Positions 6,965-14,228 of a DNA stretch of 20,446 nucleotides are shown here, piece by piece. Origin of the DNA: a virus; IMG/VR virus record IMGVR_UViG_3300046734_000088, positions 1 through 20,446 of that record; one strand, written 5' to 3'. Within the stretch, counting starts at the first letter, position 1. Every line of letters starts with the position of its first letter. Made by a program: the position numbers and the translations under genes. Below the pieces are notes generated by a model that saw only the letters and a program-made list of their open reading frames with translations, searched no databases and was not told the origin of the DNA.

Positions 6965-7243
6965 TCAAAGTCTCCTGATAAGTTCGGCTAGGTCTTTTTG
7001 CCCTGCATCACACAGGGCGTTGTAAACAGTGGTTCGGTCGCTTTTTATGGCTTCCTTCATGTAGTGGACGAGGAGCTTCCTGATGTCAGCTCTAAATGCC
7101 TCGGCTTGTGCTCGCACTTCTGGCGCGGCGCTTTCTGCTATTGAGACAATTTTGTCTAAGCATCTCTCGGCAACTTCTTCCGGGGTAAACCCTCTGTTAG
7201 AGGTTGTTTGCACAAATACATTACCAACAGTAGCGTCGATCAT
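6965..7243 (-). CDS. Conserved small helical phage protein, function unknown
   Basis: A 92-residue protein. A short beta-like start (MIDATVGNVFVQTTSNRG) leads into an all-helical body: FTPEEVAERCLDKIVSIAES, EVRAQAEAFRADIRKLLVHY, MKEAIKSDRTTVYNALCDAG and the C terminus LAELIRRL. I recall the FTPEEVAERC and IKSDRTTVYNAL blocks as conserved in many phages between connector and fibre genes, without an assigned role. It overlaps the upstream adaptor gene by ATGA, so the two are probably translated together in fixed ratio. The tail of the gene carries the ribosome site of the next one. Confidence 0.68.
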   Translation of the reverse strand: MIDATVGNVFVQTTSNRGFTPEEVAERCLDKIVSIAESAAPEVRAQAEAFRADIRKLLVHYMKEAIKSDRTTVYNALCDAGQKDLAELIRRL

Positions 7244-7881
7244 GATCTAGGCTTCCTTACCTCTCCGCCACGGTAGCTGTCTGTTGTGCTGTAGCCCTCG
7301 CCCAGCTCCTCCAGTTTGGCCAGCGCCTCCATGTACCTCTGGGCATACAACTGCATTAGGTCTGGGTCGCCCTTGAGGTAGGTGTACGCCTCAACAAGAC
7401 AGCCATAAAGCAGTGTGGACTCAGCATTAGTGCCAAGCCAGCTAGTGCCGTCTGTGGAGGTGGTAATAGAGGTGGGCTTGTGGAAGTAGTGCAGTTCGGC
7501 GGTGTACGCCGCGTCTGGGGTAGGGCCAAGAATAAATGCTGTGCGACTAAAAATGCCGTAATACTTAGGTGCGCCTGTAGTCCCGGCGGCGGGATAAGCC
7601 TGTCGTATAAAGTTGACATCCTTGAAGATCAGATAGTCATACCCGGAATTATCAATCGCTAATGAGTAGGGCGTCAAAAAATCCGATGGCATCACCAGAT
7701 ACTGACTGCCTGCGGCGACAGACCCCTCCACATTTTTGCGGAAGTCGGGTAACTGTACCGTCTTGAGAATCTTGTCTTCCGCCTGCTGAATGATGGTCGG
7801 CAGGTTGTTGACGAAGCTGGTCTCGTTGGACTCCGTATAGTCCTGTATGGCCTGCTTCAACGTGGTAAAGGTAAACGCCAT
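7240..7881 (-). CDS. Head-tail adaptor-like protein (SU10 adaptor-like)
   Basis: A 213-residue protein. It starts MAFTFTTLKQAIQDYTESNE and continues FVNNLPTIIQQAEDKILKTV, LPDFRKNVEGSVAAGSQYLV, MPSDFLTPYSLAI, FILGPTPDAAYTAELHYFHK, WLGTNAESTLLYGCLVEAYT and YAQRYMEALAKL. This ordering (N-terminal helices, central beta sandwich, C-terminal helices around YMEAL) matches the portal-adaptor family exemplified by podovirus SU10 (PF24175 as I remember it), which forms a ring between the portal and the tail. It follows the 231- and 114-residue genes with a TGATG overlap. Adaptor identity is fairly secure; a T7 gp11-like tail tubular A protein is the closest alternative. Confidence 0.72.
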   Translation of the reverse strand: MAFTFTTLKQAIQDYTESNETSFVNNLPTIIQQAEDKILKTVQLPDFRKNVEGSVAAGSQYLVMPSDFLTPYSLAIDNSGYDYLIFKDVNFIRQAYPAAGTTGAPKYYGIFSRTAFILGPTPDAAYTAELHYFHKPTSITTSTDGTSWLGTNAESTLLYGCLVEAYTYLKGDPDLMQLYAQRYMEALAKLEELGEGYSTTDSYRGGEVRKPRS

Positions 7882-8225
7882 CAGGAAGTCTCTATTGTTA
7901 CGCGCCCAACCACGCCTGCCATGTCAAGGCCCACAGTGCGGCTCCCAAGAGCTGTATTGCCACCACCAACGGGATCAAAGGCAGACAAAGCGCGGCTTTC
8001 GTCAAGTGAATTGTCAGGTCTAGGGTATCTAAGAGCCTGCGGATCGCTCGCATTGACATCCCCCAATTTAAGCTGAGGCTGGTCCTGATCCACTACATCG
8101 CGGCCAACTAGCAAGCCGTTCCATCGGCCATCCTCTATTTGACGGACAAGGTCGCGCAGTGGGTAACGGAATCCAGTCCGATCACAAAAGCCGAAAGCAT
8201 GCTTACCCTTGGCATAACTGCTCAT
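7881..8225 (-). CDS. Small conserved protein resembling a cysteine-depleted zinc ribbon
   Basis: A 114-residue protein. I chose the ATG at 8225 because it overlaps the stop of the upstream gene as ATGA; the frame is open further upstream, but that part is a shadow of the upstream gene. Residues 4-73 read AKGKHAFGFCDRTGFRYPLR, then DLVRQIEDGRWNGLLVGRD, QPQLKLGDVNASDPQALRYP and RPDNS. I recall marine phage relatives with two CxxC-type pairs here (CDRCGF and V-C-P-x-C-W). In this protein only C14 remains, and the other three expected cysteines are T, G and V-type residues. The segment from about 74 to 114 is Ser/Gly-rich and variable. It lies between two adaptor genes, which suggests a connector or head-completion role. 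Function unknown. Confidence 0.66.
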   Translation of the reverse strand: MSSYAKGKHAFGFCDRTGFRYPLRDLVRQIEDGRWNGLLVGRDVVDQDQPQLKLGDVNASDPQALRYPRPDNSLDESRALSAFDPVGGGNTALGSRTVGLDMAGVVGRVTIETS

Positions 8226-8917
8226 AGGTCGTTGTAGCCTCCCGGCGCCATATACAGAGCCGCTTTCTCGCGAGACGCATCCGCCGCAAGATTCCACTGC
8301 TCCTCGTACACCTGCTTGAGGGCAGGCGCAATACCCATAGATTCTGGCTTTTTGCTGGCGATTTGATAAGCCAGCCCTGCCACTAGACACGGCAGATAGC
8401 GAGCGGGGACATCCATGTTATTGGACGCAGGCTTGCCGCTGTCTTCGATCCGGTCTAAATAGTAGTAAGCGAATGTGTAGCTGGTCGTTGCGTCTGGAAC
8501 AGGCCAAAAATGCACTGTAATACCAGCAGGCTTGCGCTCAATGTAGTACTGGAGCGGTCGCCCTTGAGTTAACTTGTTGGTCTGGTGCGCGTACTGGCTG
8601 ACCGAAATCCTCTGCATAGTCAGGTCGGACTGCTTGGATGTGTCGCCCGCGTCGGTGCGCAACAGCCCCTCTATTATGTCTAGCTTCTCAGATGTAAGGT
8701 CGTATGACGACGTTCCTGCAACAAGAGCCAGCGTGGCGTCTCGCACCGTCCAGAGATTAAGGCCGCGGTTTTGCCACTCAAGCATGAGCAGATCAATGCT
8801 CCGACGAGCAGTTTTGTAATCATATCCACTGCGCAACTCGGAGCCAGCACGCTCAAACGCCTCTTCCATTATGTCTGACAGGTCAAGAGTAAAGCTGGTT
8901 GTTCCGCTAGTCGCCAT
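8222..8917 (-). CDS. Head-completion or adaptor protein (P22 gp4-like)
   Basis: A 231-residue protein. The N-terminal helices (LDLSDIMEEAFERAGSELRS, then YDYKTARRSIDLLMLEWQNR and NLWTV, residues 10-58) are characteristic of the phage head-tail adaptor family related to P22 gp4. A beta region follows with SSYDLTSEKLDIIEGLLRTD, QRISVSQYAHQTNKLTQGRP, YYIERKPAGITVHFWPVPDA and SYTFAYYYLDRIED. Then comes a C-terminal helical part (MDVPARYLPCLVAGLAYQIA, PALKQVYEEQWNLAADASRE). The start ATG follows the 49-residue gene directly (TAAATG). In related phages such a protein docks under the portal after packaging and keeps DNA in the head. Two adaptor-like genes in tandem imply a two-ring connector. Confidence 0.73.
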   Translation of the reverse strand: MATSGTTSFTLDLSDIMEEAFERAGSELRSGYDYKTARRSIDLLMLEWQNRGLNLWTVRDATLALVAGTSSYDLTSEKLDIIEGLLRTDAGDTSKQSDLTMQRISVSQYAHQTNKLTQGRPLQYYIERKPAGITVHFWPVPDATTSYTFAYYYLDRIEDSGKPASNNMDVPARYLPCLVAGLAYQIASKKPESMGIAPALKQVYEEQWNLAADASREKAALYMAPGGYNDL

Positions 8918-9067
8918 TTAAACAACCACCCCTCGGGTCTTGCCGCGCATGGCAATGCCATTTCTGCACTTTGCCTTGGGTATCTTGCCCCCAACGGCCA
9001 TTTTCTTTTGCTTACACTTGGGTGCGTTTTTAACCTGTTTTGCGGTCTGCGCTCTGCTGATTGCCAT
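8918..9067 (-). CDS. 49-residue basic protein with IPKAKCRNGIAMRGKTRG motif
   Basis: A 49-codon gene. It starts at ATG 9065-9067, directly after the TAG of the upstream gene (TAGATG), and its TAA at 8918-8920 directly precedes the next ATG (TAAATG), so it fills the gap exactly. The protein begins MAISRAQTAKQVKNAPKCKQ and ends with MAVGGKIPKAKCRNGIAMRG then KTRGVVV. It is strongly basic with two cysteines. The CRNG-x-A-M-RGKTRG block is one I recall from other marine phage small proteins, which supports a real gene despite the length. It is in the same run as three other tiny basic genes. No function is known; DNA or head-interior binding is a guess from charge. Confidence 0.7.
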   Translation of the reverse strand: MAISRAQTAKQVKNAPKCKQKKMAVGGKIPKAKCRNGIAMRGKTRGVVV

Positions 9068-9382
9068 CTAGCTACCCTTCTTCCATTTCTTGGACTTCGA
9101 CTTGGTCTTGCTCGGACTCCACTTGACCTTGTCCGCCCAGTAGGCCGCAGACATCTTGCCGCGCTTAATGTTCTTTGCATGACGCGACTTAAATGCTTTG
9201 CGCTGGCCAACGGTTTGATTGGTCTTTACGCCCTGCTGGCCAAACCGAATGATTTTTTCTTTGCCGCCCTCACACGCCTTGACGATGTGGGACTTTTTAG
9301 AGTGACCGGGAGTCCGCTTCGGCTTGTTGCACGCCATAGCGCCCTTATCAACGCGACCGCCCTTCTTGTAATAGAGTCGCAT
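9068..9382 (-). CDS. Basic small protein with MRLYYKKGG leader, function unknown
   Basis: A 104-residue, very Lys/Arg-rich protein. It opens MRLYYKKGGRVDKGAMACNK and continues PKRTPGHSKKSHIVKACEGG, KEKIIRFGQQGVKTNQTVGQ, RKAFKSRHAKNIKRGKMSAA and YWADKVKW, with a Lys/Ser-rich tail. The CNKPxRTPxHxKKSHxVKACEGGKEKIIRFGxQG and SAAYWADKVKW blocks are, to my memory, conserved across marine phages with no known role. I keep the ATG at 9382, which overlaps the upstream stop as TAATG, although M16 (MACNKP) could be the original start of the core family. The first nine residues match those of the 67-residue protein exactly, through different codons. Two cysteines could bind metal, but no classic zinc motif is visible. 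Confidence 0.7.
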   Translation of the reverse strand: MRLYYKKGGRVDKGAMACNKPKRTPGHSKKSHIVKACEGGKEKIIRFGQQGVKTNQTVGQRKAFKSRHAKNIKRGKMSAAYWADKVKWSPSKTKSKSKKWKKGS

Positions 9383-9636
9383 TACTTCCGGTGCCTCGCT
9401 GTCTTTTTAGCCACTTTCTTTGGCTGGCTAGAATGCTGTTTACCTTTCTTGGTGTCAGCCCGCTTTTTACGGCTAGTTGCGGCGTATTCCTTTGAAGACA
9501 GCGATTTAATTGCCTTTTCTGGCAAATATCGCTCACCCGTAGCTTTTTTTCCTTGAGTACTAGGCTTTCCAGACTTGGTGCGCCACTTCTGCTTCGTCCA
9601 CTTCTTGAGGGACTTTTGCGACTTTTTGAGCGCCAT
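9382..9636 (-). CDS. Basic small protein, DUF5872-like
   Basis: An 84-residue protein, starting at ATG 9634-9636 in a TGATG overlap with the upstream stop; the longer open frame upstream is a shadow. It reads MALKKSQKSLKKWTKQKWRT, KSGKPSTQGKKATGERYLPE, KAIKSLSSKEYAATSRKKRA and DTKKGKQHSSQPKKVAKKTA, ending RHRK. The W-T-x-Q-x-W-R-T-K-S-G-K-P-S, ERYLPxKAIxSLS and EYAATxRKKRxD blocks match my memory of DUF5872, a family of unknown function seen in phages and some large viruses. It is extremely basic and low in hydrophobics, so it likely binds nucleic acid or an acidic partner. It lies in a run of four such genes downstream of the capsid gene. The DUF number should be treated as tentative. Confidence 0.68.
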   Translation of the reverse strand: MALKKSQKSLKKWTKQKWRTKSGKPSTQGKKATGERYLPEKAIKSLSSKEYAATSRKKRADTKKGKQHSSQPKKVAKKTARHRK

Positions 9637-9839
9637 CAGTCTTTGTAGCCGCCGCCCGCGGATTTGTACTGCTTTGCCAGCATCTGGGCCTTTCGCGCTG
9701 ACCATTGTCCGGGCTTGCCACCCTTGCCACCCGCCTTAATCTTGTTGAATAGGCGCTTGCGCATGGATGGCTTAGTGTAGTTTCCAGCCTCATTGACCTT
9801 CGACTTTGTCTTGCCGCCCTTCTTGTAGTACAGCCGCAT
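9636..9839 (-). CDS. Basic small protein with MRLYYKKGG leader and NEAGNYTKP core
   Basis: A 67-residue Lys/Gly-rich protein. It reads MRLYYKKGGKTKSKVNEAGN, YTKPSMRKRLFNKIKAGGKG, GKPGQWSARKAQMLAKQYKS and AGGGYKD. The NEAGNYTKPxMRKRLFNxIKAGxKGGKxGQWSARKAQMLAxxYKxxGGGY pattern is one I recall as highly conserved in marine phages, which argues for selection on the protein. It starts at ATG 9839 overlapping the stop of the 135-residue gene as TAATG. No acidic catalytic site or zinc motif is visible. Abundance of Lys and Arg and presence among structural genes suggest a virion-internal or packaging-related role, which is only inference. Confidence 0.7.
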   Translation of the reverse strand: MRLYYKKGGKTKSKVNEAGNYTKPSMRKRLFNKIKAGGKGGKPGQWSARKAQMLAKQYKSAGGGYKD

Positions 9840-10246
9840 TAGCCATAGCTCTTCTTTACTTTAAGCACGACGTTGTACGAGTCAGCATTGCTGGCACCAA
9901 CTGTGGTGAAGTTAATATCACCCGTCTTGCCCGATCCGGCATTGTTAGGAATGCCGACAAACTCGGAAAAATCTACTGTGTCTGAGTAGTCAGCAGGAAG
10001 CTCCCACGCTAAAACGTCGGTTGAAGCGTCAAACAGGATCTCTACGCCCATGCCAATGGTCGAATACCAGATGCACTCTATTTGCACGCTGGTGCACGCC
10101 TTGTCGCTAGCGGGGTCTTTAGATAATGAAGACACGTCGATCTTGGTCACAGCGGCTTCGCCAGAGCCATCGCTGACGTTAGTGAACGAAAAAATCGCCG
10201 TGCGAGGCCCGTCCTCAATAGTCTGACTGGTAACTGTATCAGCCAT
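9839..10246 (-). CDS. Conserved virion-type protein of 135 residues
   Basis: A 135-residue protein, mostly beta and without cysteine clusters. It begins MADTVTSQTIEDGPRTAIFS, followed by FTNVSDGSGEAAVTKIDVSS, an IECIWYSTIGMGVEILFDAS strand pair, DVLAWELPADYSDTVDFSEF, GKTGDINFTTVGASNADSYN and VVLKVKKSYG at the C terminus. I recall this family in marine phages near the capsid gene, with no firm role. I use ATG 10246 because GGAGGG lies four bases upstream; the TTG at 10258 in the same frame lies in the terminator tail. Possible roles are head decoration, head completion or tail tube. It begins a new ATG-coupled run that contains the small basic genes. Confidence 0.66.
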   Translation of the reverse strand: MADTVTSQTIEDGPRTAIFSFTNVSDGSGEAAVTKIDVSSLSKDPASDKACTSVQIECIWYSTIGMGVEILFDASTDVLAWELPADYSDTVDFSEFVGIPNNAGSGKTGDINFTTVGASNADSYNVVLKVKKSYG

Positions 10247-10256
10247 TTTGCCCTCC

Positions 10257-10276
10257 AAAAAAGGGGCTTACGCCCC
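10257..10276 (-). terminator. Intrinsic terminator after the 153-residue gene
   Basis: On the minus strand GGGGC-GTAA-GCCCC (stem bases 10272-10276 and 10263-10267) is followed by six T (10262-10257). It begins six bases after the stop of the 153-residue gene and ends right before the ribosome site of the next gene. Confidence 0.8.
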
Positions 10277-10827: not shown

Positions 10828-11736
10828 TTAGGAAGTTCCGGGCGAGCCGTAGATTCCCAGAGGATCGGATACGCCGAAGCTGTATCGCTCGCGAGCCTTG
10901 TACCGGACGTTACCAGTATCAAAGTCGCCGTCCATTGAAGTCTCCAACGCAGTACGGTTGAAGTGCTTCATGCCGTTCGGTACATCGGTGATCAAGAAGA
11001 ACGCATTCGTGTCAGTCAAGAAGTGATTGACAGAATAGCCTTCTGGAATCGATCCGTTGTTGCGAAGGGCATTGATGTCGTTGTCAGCCGTGCCAACTCG
11101 ACCCTCAGTCTCAAGCAAGCGAGTTGCTACAAACTGAAGTGCGGGTGGAACGATTAAACGACGGGGGCGAGCCGCGATCAGCAGTCCACGCTCATCGGTA
11201 AATGCGGCGATGTTAATCACAGCATCTTCCAGTGAGGTTTCATTCAGATCAGCCGCTACGGCAGGACGGTTAGCGTTAGTGCCACCGTTTACCAGCGGGT
11301 GAGCCGTGCTGAACAGCGTTACGCCGTCACCAGATTGGAAGGTGTTAAAGCCGTTGTTAAGCGGGTTTGCCGCTTTAACCTGCTTGGTGTGTGCCATAGC
11401 ACGGGCCAACGCCTTGGTGTAGCGAGCAGAAAGAGAATCGTAAAGATTGTCTTCCATCGCTTCTTCAGTGATGCTGAAGCCCAAAGCAATTGTTTCGTGG
11501 TTATAGCGAGCAGTGAACGACTCCTGCGCCGAGTCATAGCTAATGGCAGAGCCTTCAGCTTTAACTGGTGCGGCACCAAAGCCGGACAGCTTTACTTCTT
11601 CCTCAAACGACCGCTCAGATGACTCAGTGTCATAAATCATCGTGTGCTCATCGTCGTACCGCTCATACTCCAATCCGAACAAGGCGTTCAGACCGGGGAG
11701 CAGTTCTTTCAGCATTTGTGCGCGTGAAATAGCCAT
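10828..11736 (-). CDS. Major capsid protein (Mu gpT-like, HK97 fold)
   Basis: A 302-residue protein. Residues 1-40 form the N-arm (MAISRAQMLKELLPGLNALF, then GLEYERYDDEHTMIYDT). Further blocks are YNHETIALGFSITEEAMEDN (79-98), a long helix with ARYTKALARAMAHTKQVKAA (104-123), LFSTAHPL (141-148), RRLIVPPAL with QFVATRLL (192-208), VNHFLTDTNAFFLITDVPNG (236-255) and the C-terminal GNVRYKARERYSFGVSDPLG (275-294). The LFSTAHP and RRLIVPP blocks are hallmarks of the Mu-like major head subunit gpT family. Length is normal for the family without a fused scaffold, which fits a separate scaffold gene upstream. AAGGAGA lies upstream of ATG 11736. A strong terminator follows, as expected for the most abundant virion product. 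Confidence 0.88.
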   Translation of the reverse strand: MAISRAQMLKELLPGLNALFGLEYERYDDEHTMIYDTESSERSFEEEVKLSGFGAAPVKAEGSAISYDSAQESFTARYNHETIALGFSITEEAMEDNLYDSLSARYTKALARAMAHTKQVKAANPLNNGFNTFQSGDGVTLFSTAHPLVNGGTNANRPAVAADLNETSLEDAVINIAAFTDERGLLIAARPRRLIVPPALQFVATRLLETEGRVGTADNDINALRNNGSIPEGYSVNHFLTDTNAFFLITDVPNGMKHFNRTALETSMDGDFDTGNVRYKARERYSFGVSDPLGIYGSPGTS

Positions 11737-12843: not shown

Positions 12844-13878
12844 TTATGACTCCTTTATGAGCTGGTTGGCATACTGTTCTGCGGTTAACCCTAGTCGCTT
12901 TGCGAGAGCGATTTGGGTGCGGCTCAACCTCACTTTGCGTGGTTTGGCACCGTTATTCCTAGAGGAAGGGGCCACCACCACGGAGGGGCTTCGGGAAGTC
13001 GAGGAAGGTTGTGCGCCCTGAGACGCCTCACCTGAGCCACTGTCTTCTTCGCCGAAGTAGTCTGGAAACCTTGACCGCATGGTGCGATCAATGGTCTCAA
13101 AGTATTCGTCCGAGTTAGGATCAAAGCCCTCGTCCCGAACTAATTTTTCATGCACGCCGTAAGCCAGCGCGGTCATATCTTTTTCTTGGCCAAACCAAGG
13201 ATTTTTTTCTGACCATTGCACTGCCTTCGCCGAGGGAGTTGGCGGTGCTGGTCCAACTTCGGGCTGTTTAGCCGGCTTTGCCGCTGGCTTAAACTGCTCT
13301 GGAGCCTGTTGAGGGCGCTGTTGAAGATGATTTAGCTGGTAGTCAGCAGACTTTAGCTCTGACTGCGCATTGATCATCGCCTCTTGCGCTTCAAGAATCT
13401 TGTCTGTGTTGCCCTCTTCGTAAGCCTGACGATAGCTATTCTTAGCTTGATCGACAGCCATAGACGCTCGCTCTCGTATCTGATGTACCAGATACTGCTC
13501 GCCTTCTTGAATGATCTTGTGATACTGCTTGCTTTGCTCCGCGTACTGTTGAGCAACTTTGATAGCCTCTTCGCGAAGGCGCTCTGCCTCTTCACGTTGA
13601 CGACGCTCTTCGTGCTGTTGATAGCGGAGCTTATTAATTCGTTTTTTGACCTTTTCGGAGTAACCCTCCAGCTCTTCGTCTCCGCTTGAGCTTGGCTTGG
13701 CCTCCTTTGTCTCCTTAGCAGGGGGGCGGCGGTCTTCTGCGGGTCGGTCATCTACCACCTCCACATCTACATCAGGAACTAGACCTTCGTCATCCGGCTT
13801 CTTACCAATAACCGTTTTGACACCAAAAAACTTTTCTTCAGCAGAATGCTCCTGCTGTTCCATTTGCTCTTCACTCAT
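12844..13878 (-). CDS. Capsid scaffolding protein
   Basis: A 344-residue, very charged protein with no globular hydrophobic core. An acidic N terminus (residues 1-75) leads to a long helical, coiled-coil region (about 75-185, KVKKRINKLRYQQHEERRQR and on through YAEQSKQYHKIIQEGEQYLV). A Pro/Ala/Lys linker (186-215) follows, then a block with NPWFGQEKDMTALAYGVHEK and GFDPNSDEYFETIDRTMRSR (about 226-270). A Ser-rich linker leads to a basic C-terminal helix-turn-helix-like segment (314-344, RKVRLSRTQIALAKRLGLTA). A basic C-terminal tail that binds the coat is standard in scaffolding proteins such as P22 gp8. It overlaps the GroES-like gene by ATGA. Order portal, chaperonin, scaffold, capsid supports the call. 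Confidence 0.8.
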   Translation of the reverse strand: MSEEQMEQQEHSAEEKFFGVKTVIGKKPDDEGLVPDVDVEVVDDRPAEDRRPPAKETKEAKPSSSGDEELEGYSEKVKKRINKLRYQQHEERRQREEAERLREEAIKVAQQYAEQSKQYHKIIQEGEQYLVHQIRERASMAVDQAKNSYRQAYEEGNTDKILEAQEAMINAQSELKSADYQLNHLQQRPQQAPEQFKPAAKPAKQPEVGPAPPTPSAKAVQWSEKNPWFGQEKDMTALAYGVHEKLVRDEGFDPNSDEYFETIDRTMRSRFPDYFGEEDSGSGEASQGAQPSSTSRSPSVVVAPSSRNNGAKPRKVRLSRTQIALAKRLGLTAEQYANQLIKES

Positions 13879-14228
13879 ACCTTTTCAATCCCCCTCGGGT
13901 CTTCTACAACTGCTTCGACGCTATCGTCGTTAATCAGGCGAAACTCTTTGCCGTGAATTTTGAACCGCGTCCCACTGTAGGAACGCATCAATATCCACTC
14001 GCCTTCATTGCAATATGGGCCGTGCGGGAAACGACTTTCATCGTTATAGGCATCTGGACCCATCTTCAGCACAAAGCCACAAATAGAACCGATTTCCTCT
14101 ATGTCCATTGTTTGCTTTGATTTGAGTATGCCGCCTTCCGTTTTTTCATCTGGCTCCGGAAGGGCTATAAGCAGTTTGTAACCTTTAGGCTCAGGTAGTT
14201 GACTAGCAGTTTTTTGCTCTTCAGTCAT
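13875..14228 (-). CDS. GroES-like co-chaperonin
   Basis: A 117-residue protein with the co-chaperonin layout. Residues 14-25 (PKGYKLLIALPE) are the first barrel strand. Residues 28-43 form the mobile loop with EGGILKSKQT, where GGIL (32-35) corresponds to the hydrophobic tripeptide that GroES uses to bind GroEL. Then follow GSICGFVLKMGPDAYNDESR (47-66), FPHGPYCNEGEWILMRSYSG (67-86) and TRFKIHGKEFRLINDDSVEA (87-106). Compared with bacterial GroES (about 95 residues) the extra length is at both ends. T4 gp31 and RB49 CocO are known phage counterparts for capsid folding. GGAAAGGA lies upstream of the ATG. Its place between the portal and scaffold genes supports a head-folding role with host GroEL; no GroEL gene is in the window. 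Confidence 0.78.
   Translation of the reverse strand: MTEEQKTASQLPEPKGYKLLIALPEPDEKTEGGILKSKQTMDIEEIGSICGFVLKMGPDAYNDESRFPHGPYCNEGEWILMRSYSGTRFKIHGKEFRLINDDSVEAVVEDPRGIEKV

Follow-up and report, generated by a model that had tools for sequence, protein, structure and literature searches.

The 20,446-base virus record analyzed here (the window), which comes from an aquatic virus of bacteria, carries four small, strongly basic genes in a row within its head block, on the stretch from the capsid gene to that of the head-to-tail adaptor. Three of them, P67, P84 and P104, belong to strongly conserved families that travel with head genes and are in some cases fused with one another or with head proteases, which makes it probable that these proteins act inside the head near DNA. 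In our preferred reading, held tentatively, the three proteins are small, folded, basic modules of the prohead, most likely DNA-bound and kept in the virion.

Results

A chain of four small basic genes in the head block

All four genes lie on the minus strand. P67 (9636..9839) encodes 67 amino acids with a net charge of +17 and the core ...KGGxPGQWSARKAQxLAxxYKxxGGGY; P84 (9382..9636), the ATG-initiated portion of a longer open frame, encodes 84 amino acids (+26) with the core SLxxWxxxxW...RYLP...GKQ; P104 (9068..9382) encodes 104 amino acids (+28) with the core NKPKRTP...IRFG...RH...SAAYW...W; and P49 (8918..9067) encodes a weakly constrained protein of 49 amino acids (+14) that starts with MAISRAQ. 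Overlaps of one nucleotide (TAATG or TGATG) join P67 to P84, P84 to P104, and P67 to the acidic head-module gene g139 (9839..10258, minus strand; 135-139 amino acids, usual ATG at 10246). P104 abuts P49, which in turn abuts the gene of a 231-aa SU10-type adaptor (8222..8917, minus strand), and the whole forms a single chain from g139 upstream through the four genes to the adaptor directly downstream.

The first-pass annotation had described four contiguous tiny genes of 67, 84, 104 and 49 codons, and this arrangement was confirmed, as was their very basic composition amid acidic head genes. Net charges run from +14 to +28, isoelectric points are 10.6 for P67, 11.1 for P84, 10.9 for P104 and 11.6 for P49, and lysine and arginine make up 28-36% of the four proteins; the surrounding head proteins have isoelectric points of 4-5.4, and nearly all remaining genes of the window encode acidic proteins. 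The description of the products as low in hydrophobic residues holds for P67, P84 and P104 (20-27% AVILMFWC) but not for P49 (41%).

The neighbors had also been read correctly as capsid and adaptor genes. The major capsid protein (10828..11736, minus strand) is 67% identical to the capsid protein of Pelagibacter phage HTVC027P, and both the 231-aa protein and a second adaptor of 213 aa (7240..7881, minus strand) passed the Pfam SU10_adaptor model. Capsid and terminase are closest to those of the HTVC027P/HTVC023P pelagiphages and of podophages such as DSL-LC04, in which a Pam1-type adaptor is annotated, and Pag-Yong1. Elsewhere in the head block, a 117-aa product encoded at 13875-14228 (minus strand) resembles a GroES-type co-chaperonin, and GroES genes are annotated at the same place in HTVC027P, HTVC023P, DSL-LC04, and Pag-Yong1. 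In HTVC027P, the genes gp44-gp52 (locus L416, 11690-14001), situated between portal and GroES, are tiny and basic, one of them being DUF6321-like, and parallel the run in the window.

Two further genes had been described as KGG-rich. This is correct for P98 (16920..17201, minus strand), located between portal and terminase, which encodes a basic 93-aa protein (+21) with several [YM]xxGGx[VL] motifs and without a family match. The other gene, P83 (19393..19644, minus strand), immediately upstream of the gene for the large terminase, is better described as encoding a small basic HNH-like protein and falls outside the set: it matches phrog_4590 (E 2e-22), a family whose member HTVC041P gp24 passes HNH_3, and scores 13.8 bits against Pfam HNH (cut-off 21.4). 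In other phages, this position is known to be occupied by HNH proteins with a part in packaging.

Conservation and family membership

Short open reading frames are possible by chance, and the reality of these genes therefore rests on conservation and PHROG matches; judged from their sequences, P67, P84, P104 and P49 are real genes. Median pN/pS values against usable relatives, obtained by simple counting over relatives that are not independent, were 0.136 for P67, 0.051 for P84, 0.026 for P104, and 0.586 for P49; the capsid protein gave 0.072 and the adaptor 0.047. These values place P84 and P104 under tighter constraint than the capsid protein and P49 under loose constraint. PHROG profiles matched over most of the length of P67 (phrog_17747, E 8.8e-35), P84 (phrog_14910, 1.1e-36), and P104 (phrog_7595, 3.1e-28), and all three families are without an assigned function. 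For each of the three proteins, at least about 570-595 relatives were confirmed in viral contigs, and family alignments revealed the invariant residues WSARKAQ, RYLP, and RH...YW. Searches of Pfam, PHROGs, and PDB sequences returned no function for P67, P84, or P104, and neither a Pfam match nor a confident PDB fold match pointed to a histone-like or HU-type identity.

P67 and P84 form a pair linked to head genes

All 134 loci holding both P67 and P84 have them on the same strand, with P67 upstream in 133 and a gap of at most 20 nt in 88. These counts do not represent independent events, as single proteins served to fetch the loci and close relatives are among them. No fetched locus contained P67 without P84. 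The association with head genes that had been noticed in the window extends to the relatives: the pair lies between capsid and adaptor genes in 60 of the 60 loci that have both, and none of the head genes detected was on the strand opposite to it. Dispersal in related genomes, named in the first-pass annotation as a finding that would speak against its interpretation, does not apply to P67 and P84. Gene order is kept in relatives for these two genes but not for the other two, P104 being often elsewhere or absent and P49 being present only in close relatives.

In six annotated phages the pair belongs to the late or structural block, with a varying position inside it. It adjoins TerL in MEP402, closes the late block in HTVC034P, stands near large internal-type genes in HTVC104P, and is divided in HMO-2011, where a methanesulfonate monooxygenase gene is found between the P67 and P84 homologues (gp63-gp59; locus L002, 6258-8619). 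Small very basic genes are enriched on late strands (37/251 versus 7/183; Fisher p=1.6e-4). In five loci, P67 and P84 form a single ORF, and the model of such a fusion (mean pLDDT 89.5) consists mostly of helices, with a helix-loop-helix predicted for the P67 part.

P84 is also distantly homologous (hhalign 91%, E 9e-7; 17 ORFs matched by both profiles) to the gp50-type family of HTVC027P, which is probably DUF5872; one of 23 P84-family relatives matches DUF5872 weakly (7e-4), and the window P84 itself does not match. Of 217 same-strand pairs, 188 have the KVYPSAYAN-type gene first and the gp50-type gene after it. In HTVC027P and 023Pt_psg01 these pairs lie in the interval from portal to scaffold genes, and in HTVC023P and DSL-LC04 in that from capsid to adaptor genes. 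Homology between P67 and the KVYPSAYAN family was considered and not accepted (hhalign 65% over 14 columns).

The P104 domain is shared with head proteases and other large proteins

P104 forms a single ORF with P84 in three loci, and its core recurs within larger proteins. In ICP1 ORF125 it makes up the C-terminal part, and in gp127 of Aeromonas phage 4L372D the N-terminal part. Each of these proteins contains a Peptidase_S78_2 (XkdF) domain (E 7.5e-10 in ORF125, 1.9e-20 in gp127), and four further fusions of P104 with a protease were identified. The gene order at the protease fusions is portal, P104-protease, scaffold, decoration, and capsid. ICP1 Gp125 has been assigned as the head protease in a review, according to which ICP1 virions are without a complete proteomic analysis (PMC9040626); for phages carrying P67, P84, or P104, we found no virion proteomics in the literature searched.

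The domain is also located at the end of a 1721-aa ORF and at the start of a polyvalent protein with SLT and ART-PolyVal domains (transglycosylase/ADP-ribosyltransferase). Phage polyvalent proteins have been predicted to be packaged and injected (PMC5512222). The polyvalent protein itself (locus L282, 101-3268) shows repeated [YF]AEGGx peptides in its inter-domain regions. In Melnitz-3, P104 is fused to CTP_transf_like and DUF5824 domains; in T4-like phages it stands beside a cytidylyltransferase-like gene, whose product is not obviously a head protein; and in HTVC026P it is upstream of the terminase gene. In roseophage SIO1, a P104 homologue is present that is not annotated as a gene (24077-24304 of AF189021; locus L169, 6001-6228).

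In the P104 model (pLDDT 75, pTM 0.65), helices come after a beta-hairpin and the ends are disordered. In BFVD, ICP1 ORF125, an XkdF protein, and one of Tunisvirus matched it, each with a probability of 1.00. PDB fold searches with the P104 and P67-P84 models gave no confident match, which is no evidence of a new fold. Weak matches to DUF5754 were obtained for 10 of 24 P104-family members (best 1.1e-4) and not for the window P104 itself; HTVC041P gp29 reached 22.8 bits, below the Pfam cut-off of 27.4. The giant algal virus CpV-BQ1 is reported to have both DUF5754 and DUF5872 (PMC12085832).

GG tags and the start of P49

P67 and P104 begin with the identical peptide MRLYYKKGG (9813..9839 and 9356..9382, both minus strand), encoded by differing codons. 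The motif [YFM][AK][AKE]GGx[VIL] was observed 28 times versus 1.9 expected from shuffles. In 44 of 71 N-terminal extensions, GG is no more than 25 aa away from the P67 domain (background 11-16%), and it is also found at the P84-P104 fusion joints. The tags of P67 and P104 did not co-vary significantly within genomes (p=0.14), and the motif was counted nine times in late genes versus zero in early genes, numbers too small to rely on. No Peptidase_S78, S78_2, or S49 was detected in the annotated phages examined that carry stand-alone modules, and the interpretation of the GG tag as a prohead-protease site was therefore demoted as unsupported.

P49 relatives carry a DUF6496 domain in their middle (42 bits in one case, cut-off 24), which the window copy does not have. 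In the window, P49 (9047-9067) and the capsid protein (11716-11736), both on the minus strand, begin with ISRAQ after two residues (MAISRAQ), and the two proteins have a common start of this kind in 41 of the 41 genomes that encode both. All 41 genomes have one capsid type, so that chance and shared function are inseparable as causes of this common start.

Discussion

In the interpretation that we tentatively favor, P67, P84, and P104 would be made late alongside the head genes and act within the prohead, where they most likely bind the DNA as it is packaged and stay in the virion. P67 and P84 would function as an obligate pair, joined in some cases into one chain, and P104 as a head-interior domain that stands alone in many aquatic phages and, when fused, may anchor head-interior proteins such as the maturation protease, ejection-type proteins, or polyvalent proteins to packaged DNA or the inner head. 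P49 would be a fast-changing accessory. The sequence data establish that the genes are real and constrained, that P67 and P84 pair, that the modules fuse and are linked to head genes, and that a domain is shared with head proteases; a location in the virion and DNA binding are inferred from these data, the DNA binding from charge, as the PDB fold searches gave no match to a known DNA-binding protein. The varying place of P67-P84 inside late blocks and the occurrence of P104 next to a cytidylyltransferase-like gene in T4-like phages and upstream of the terminase in HTVC026P speak against this interpretation, as does the negative outcome of the search for virion proteomics of carriers.

Much of the linkage would also fit assembly or packaging accessories, chaperone-like or binding to scaffold or portal, that work on the prohead or terminase and are gone before maturation, with the fused P104 docking the protease on the scaffold. 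The modules always accompany head genes in window-type phages, the pair adjoins TerL in MEP402, P104 is part of the protease gene directly before scaffold, and the small HNH-like P83 stands beside TerL in the same window. We regard this explanation as possible but doubtful, given that P104 is also fused to large polyvalent or internal-type proteins that are expected to remain in the virion, and the earlier suggestion of small adaptors for packaging is not supported as stated. Injected anti-host proteins usually diversify fast, whereas P84 and P104 rank with the most tightly constrained of all proteins compared here and were found across phages of many hosts. This makes it unlikely that the modules are injected DNA-binding protectors or effectors which, like T4 internal or P1 Dar proteins, shield DNA or act on the host, a role suggested by the fusion of P104 to an SLT and ART-PolyVal protein, for whose class packaging and injection have been predicted (PMC5512222).

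Simple neutralization of packaged DNA, as proposed in the first-pass annotation, fits poorly. Non-specific polycations, with a sequence irrelevant beyond its charge, would agree with net charges of +14 to +28 among acidic head proteins and with the enrichment of small basic genes in late blocks, but their invariant aromatic and polar motifs, pN/pS values of 0.03-0.05, and the confidently predicted fold of P67-P84 do not; because of the invariant residues and the strong constraint, pure charge neutralization is disfavored and appears quite improbable for the three modules, and P98 and P49 may yet be polycations of this kind. Even less probable are nucleic acid-binding regulators of late transcription, translation, or the host nucleoid that never enter particles. 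Such regulators could well be encoded by small, basic, late-block genes, and the literature yielded no virion data for carriers, but the fusions to head protease and polyvalent proteins and the strict placement in the head block of window-type phages are difficult to reconcile with them. Adenovirus core proteins offer the comparison case for precursors cut at GG, here by a prohead protease; the excess of the motif, the position of GG near the P67 domain, and the presence of GG at P84-P104 joints are consistent with cleavage, but the annotated carriers of stand-alone modules have no Peptidase_S78, S78_2, or S49, and we consider this the most improbable of the explanations.

The reading as DNA-associated modules of the head interior could be extended to a modular system, undescribed in the literature found, in which P67-P84 as an obligate pair organizes packaged DNA, P104 serves as a portable anchor that brings proteases, ejection-type proteins, and polyvalent proteins into phage heads, and short GG tags mark module edges, possibly shared with giant viruses; we consider this extension rather unlikely as a whole. 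Should these families indeed be internal head proteins, a role would be found for hundreds of small aquatic-virome genes now called unknown. The P104 domain would then, if the reading is true, be a sequence marker for head-interior proteins, making packaged proteins predictable from genomes.

Among known families, the closest are PHROGs 17747, 14910, and 7595, to which the proteins match strongly, but the catalogue is without the pairing, the fusions, and the link to head proteases. DUF5754 and DUF5872 are approached through weak matches of P104 and P84 relatives and the Tunisvirus fold match, whereas the window proteins themselves are unmatched. T4 internal proteins are small, basic, made late, and located inside the head, features that the window proteins share, with their virion location being predicted; in contrast, no sequence link to the T4 proteins was found, nor a head protease in the carriers examined. 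HTVC027P gp49-gp50, found in the nearest isolated relatives, resembles the P67-P84 pair in its two-gene order in the head block, in the relation of the gp50-type protein to P84, and in the MRxYYxxGG tag that some members carry, although the KVYPSAYAN family is not an established homologue of P67. Whereas ICP1 Gp125 and other XkdF-type proteases (PF14550) include a protease domain, the window P104, in which the Pfam scan detected no Peptidase_S78_2, has the extra domain only; what they have in common is the P104 domain itself, recognized in ICP1 Gp125 by both profile (phrog_7595, E 7e-12) and fold (probability 1.00).
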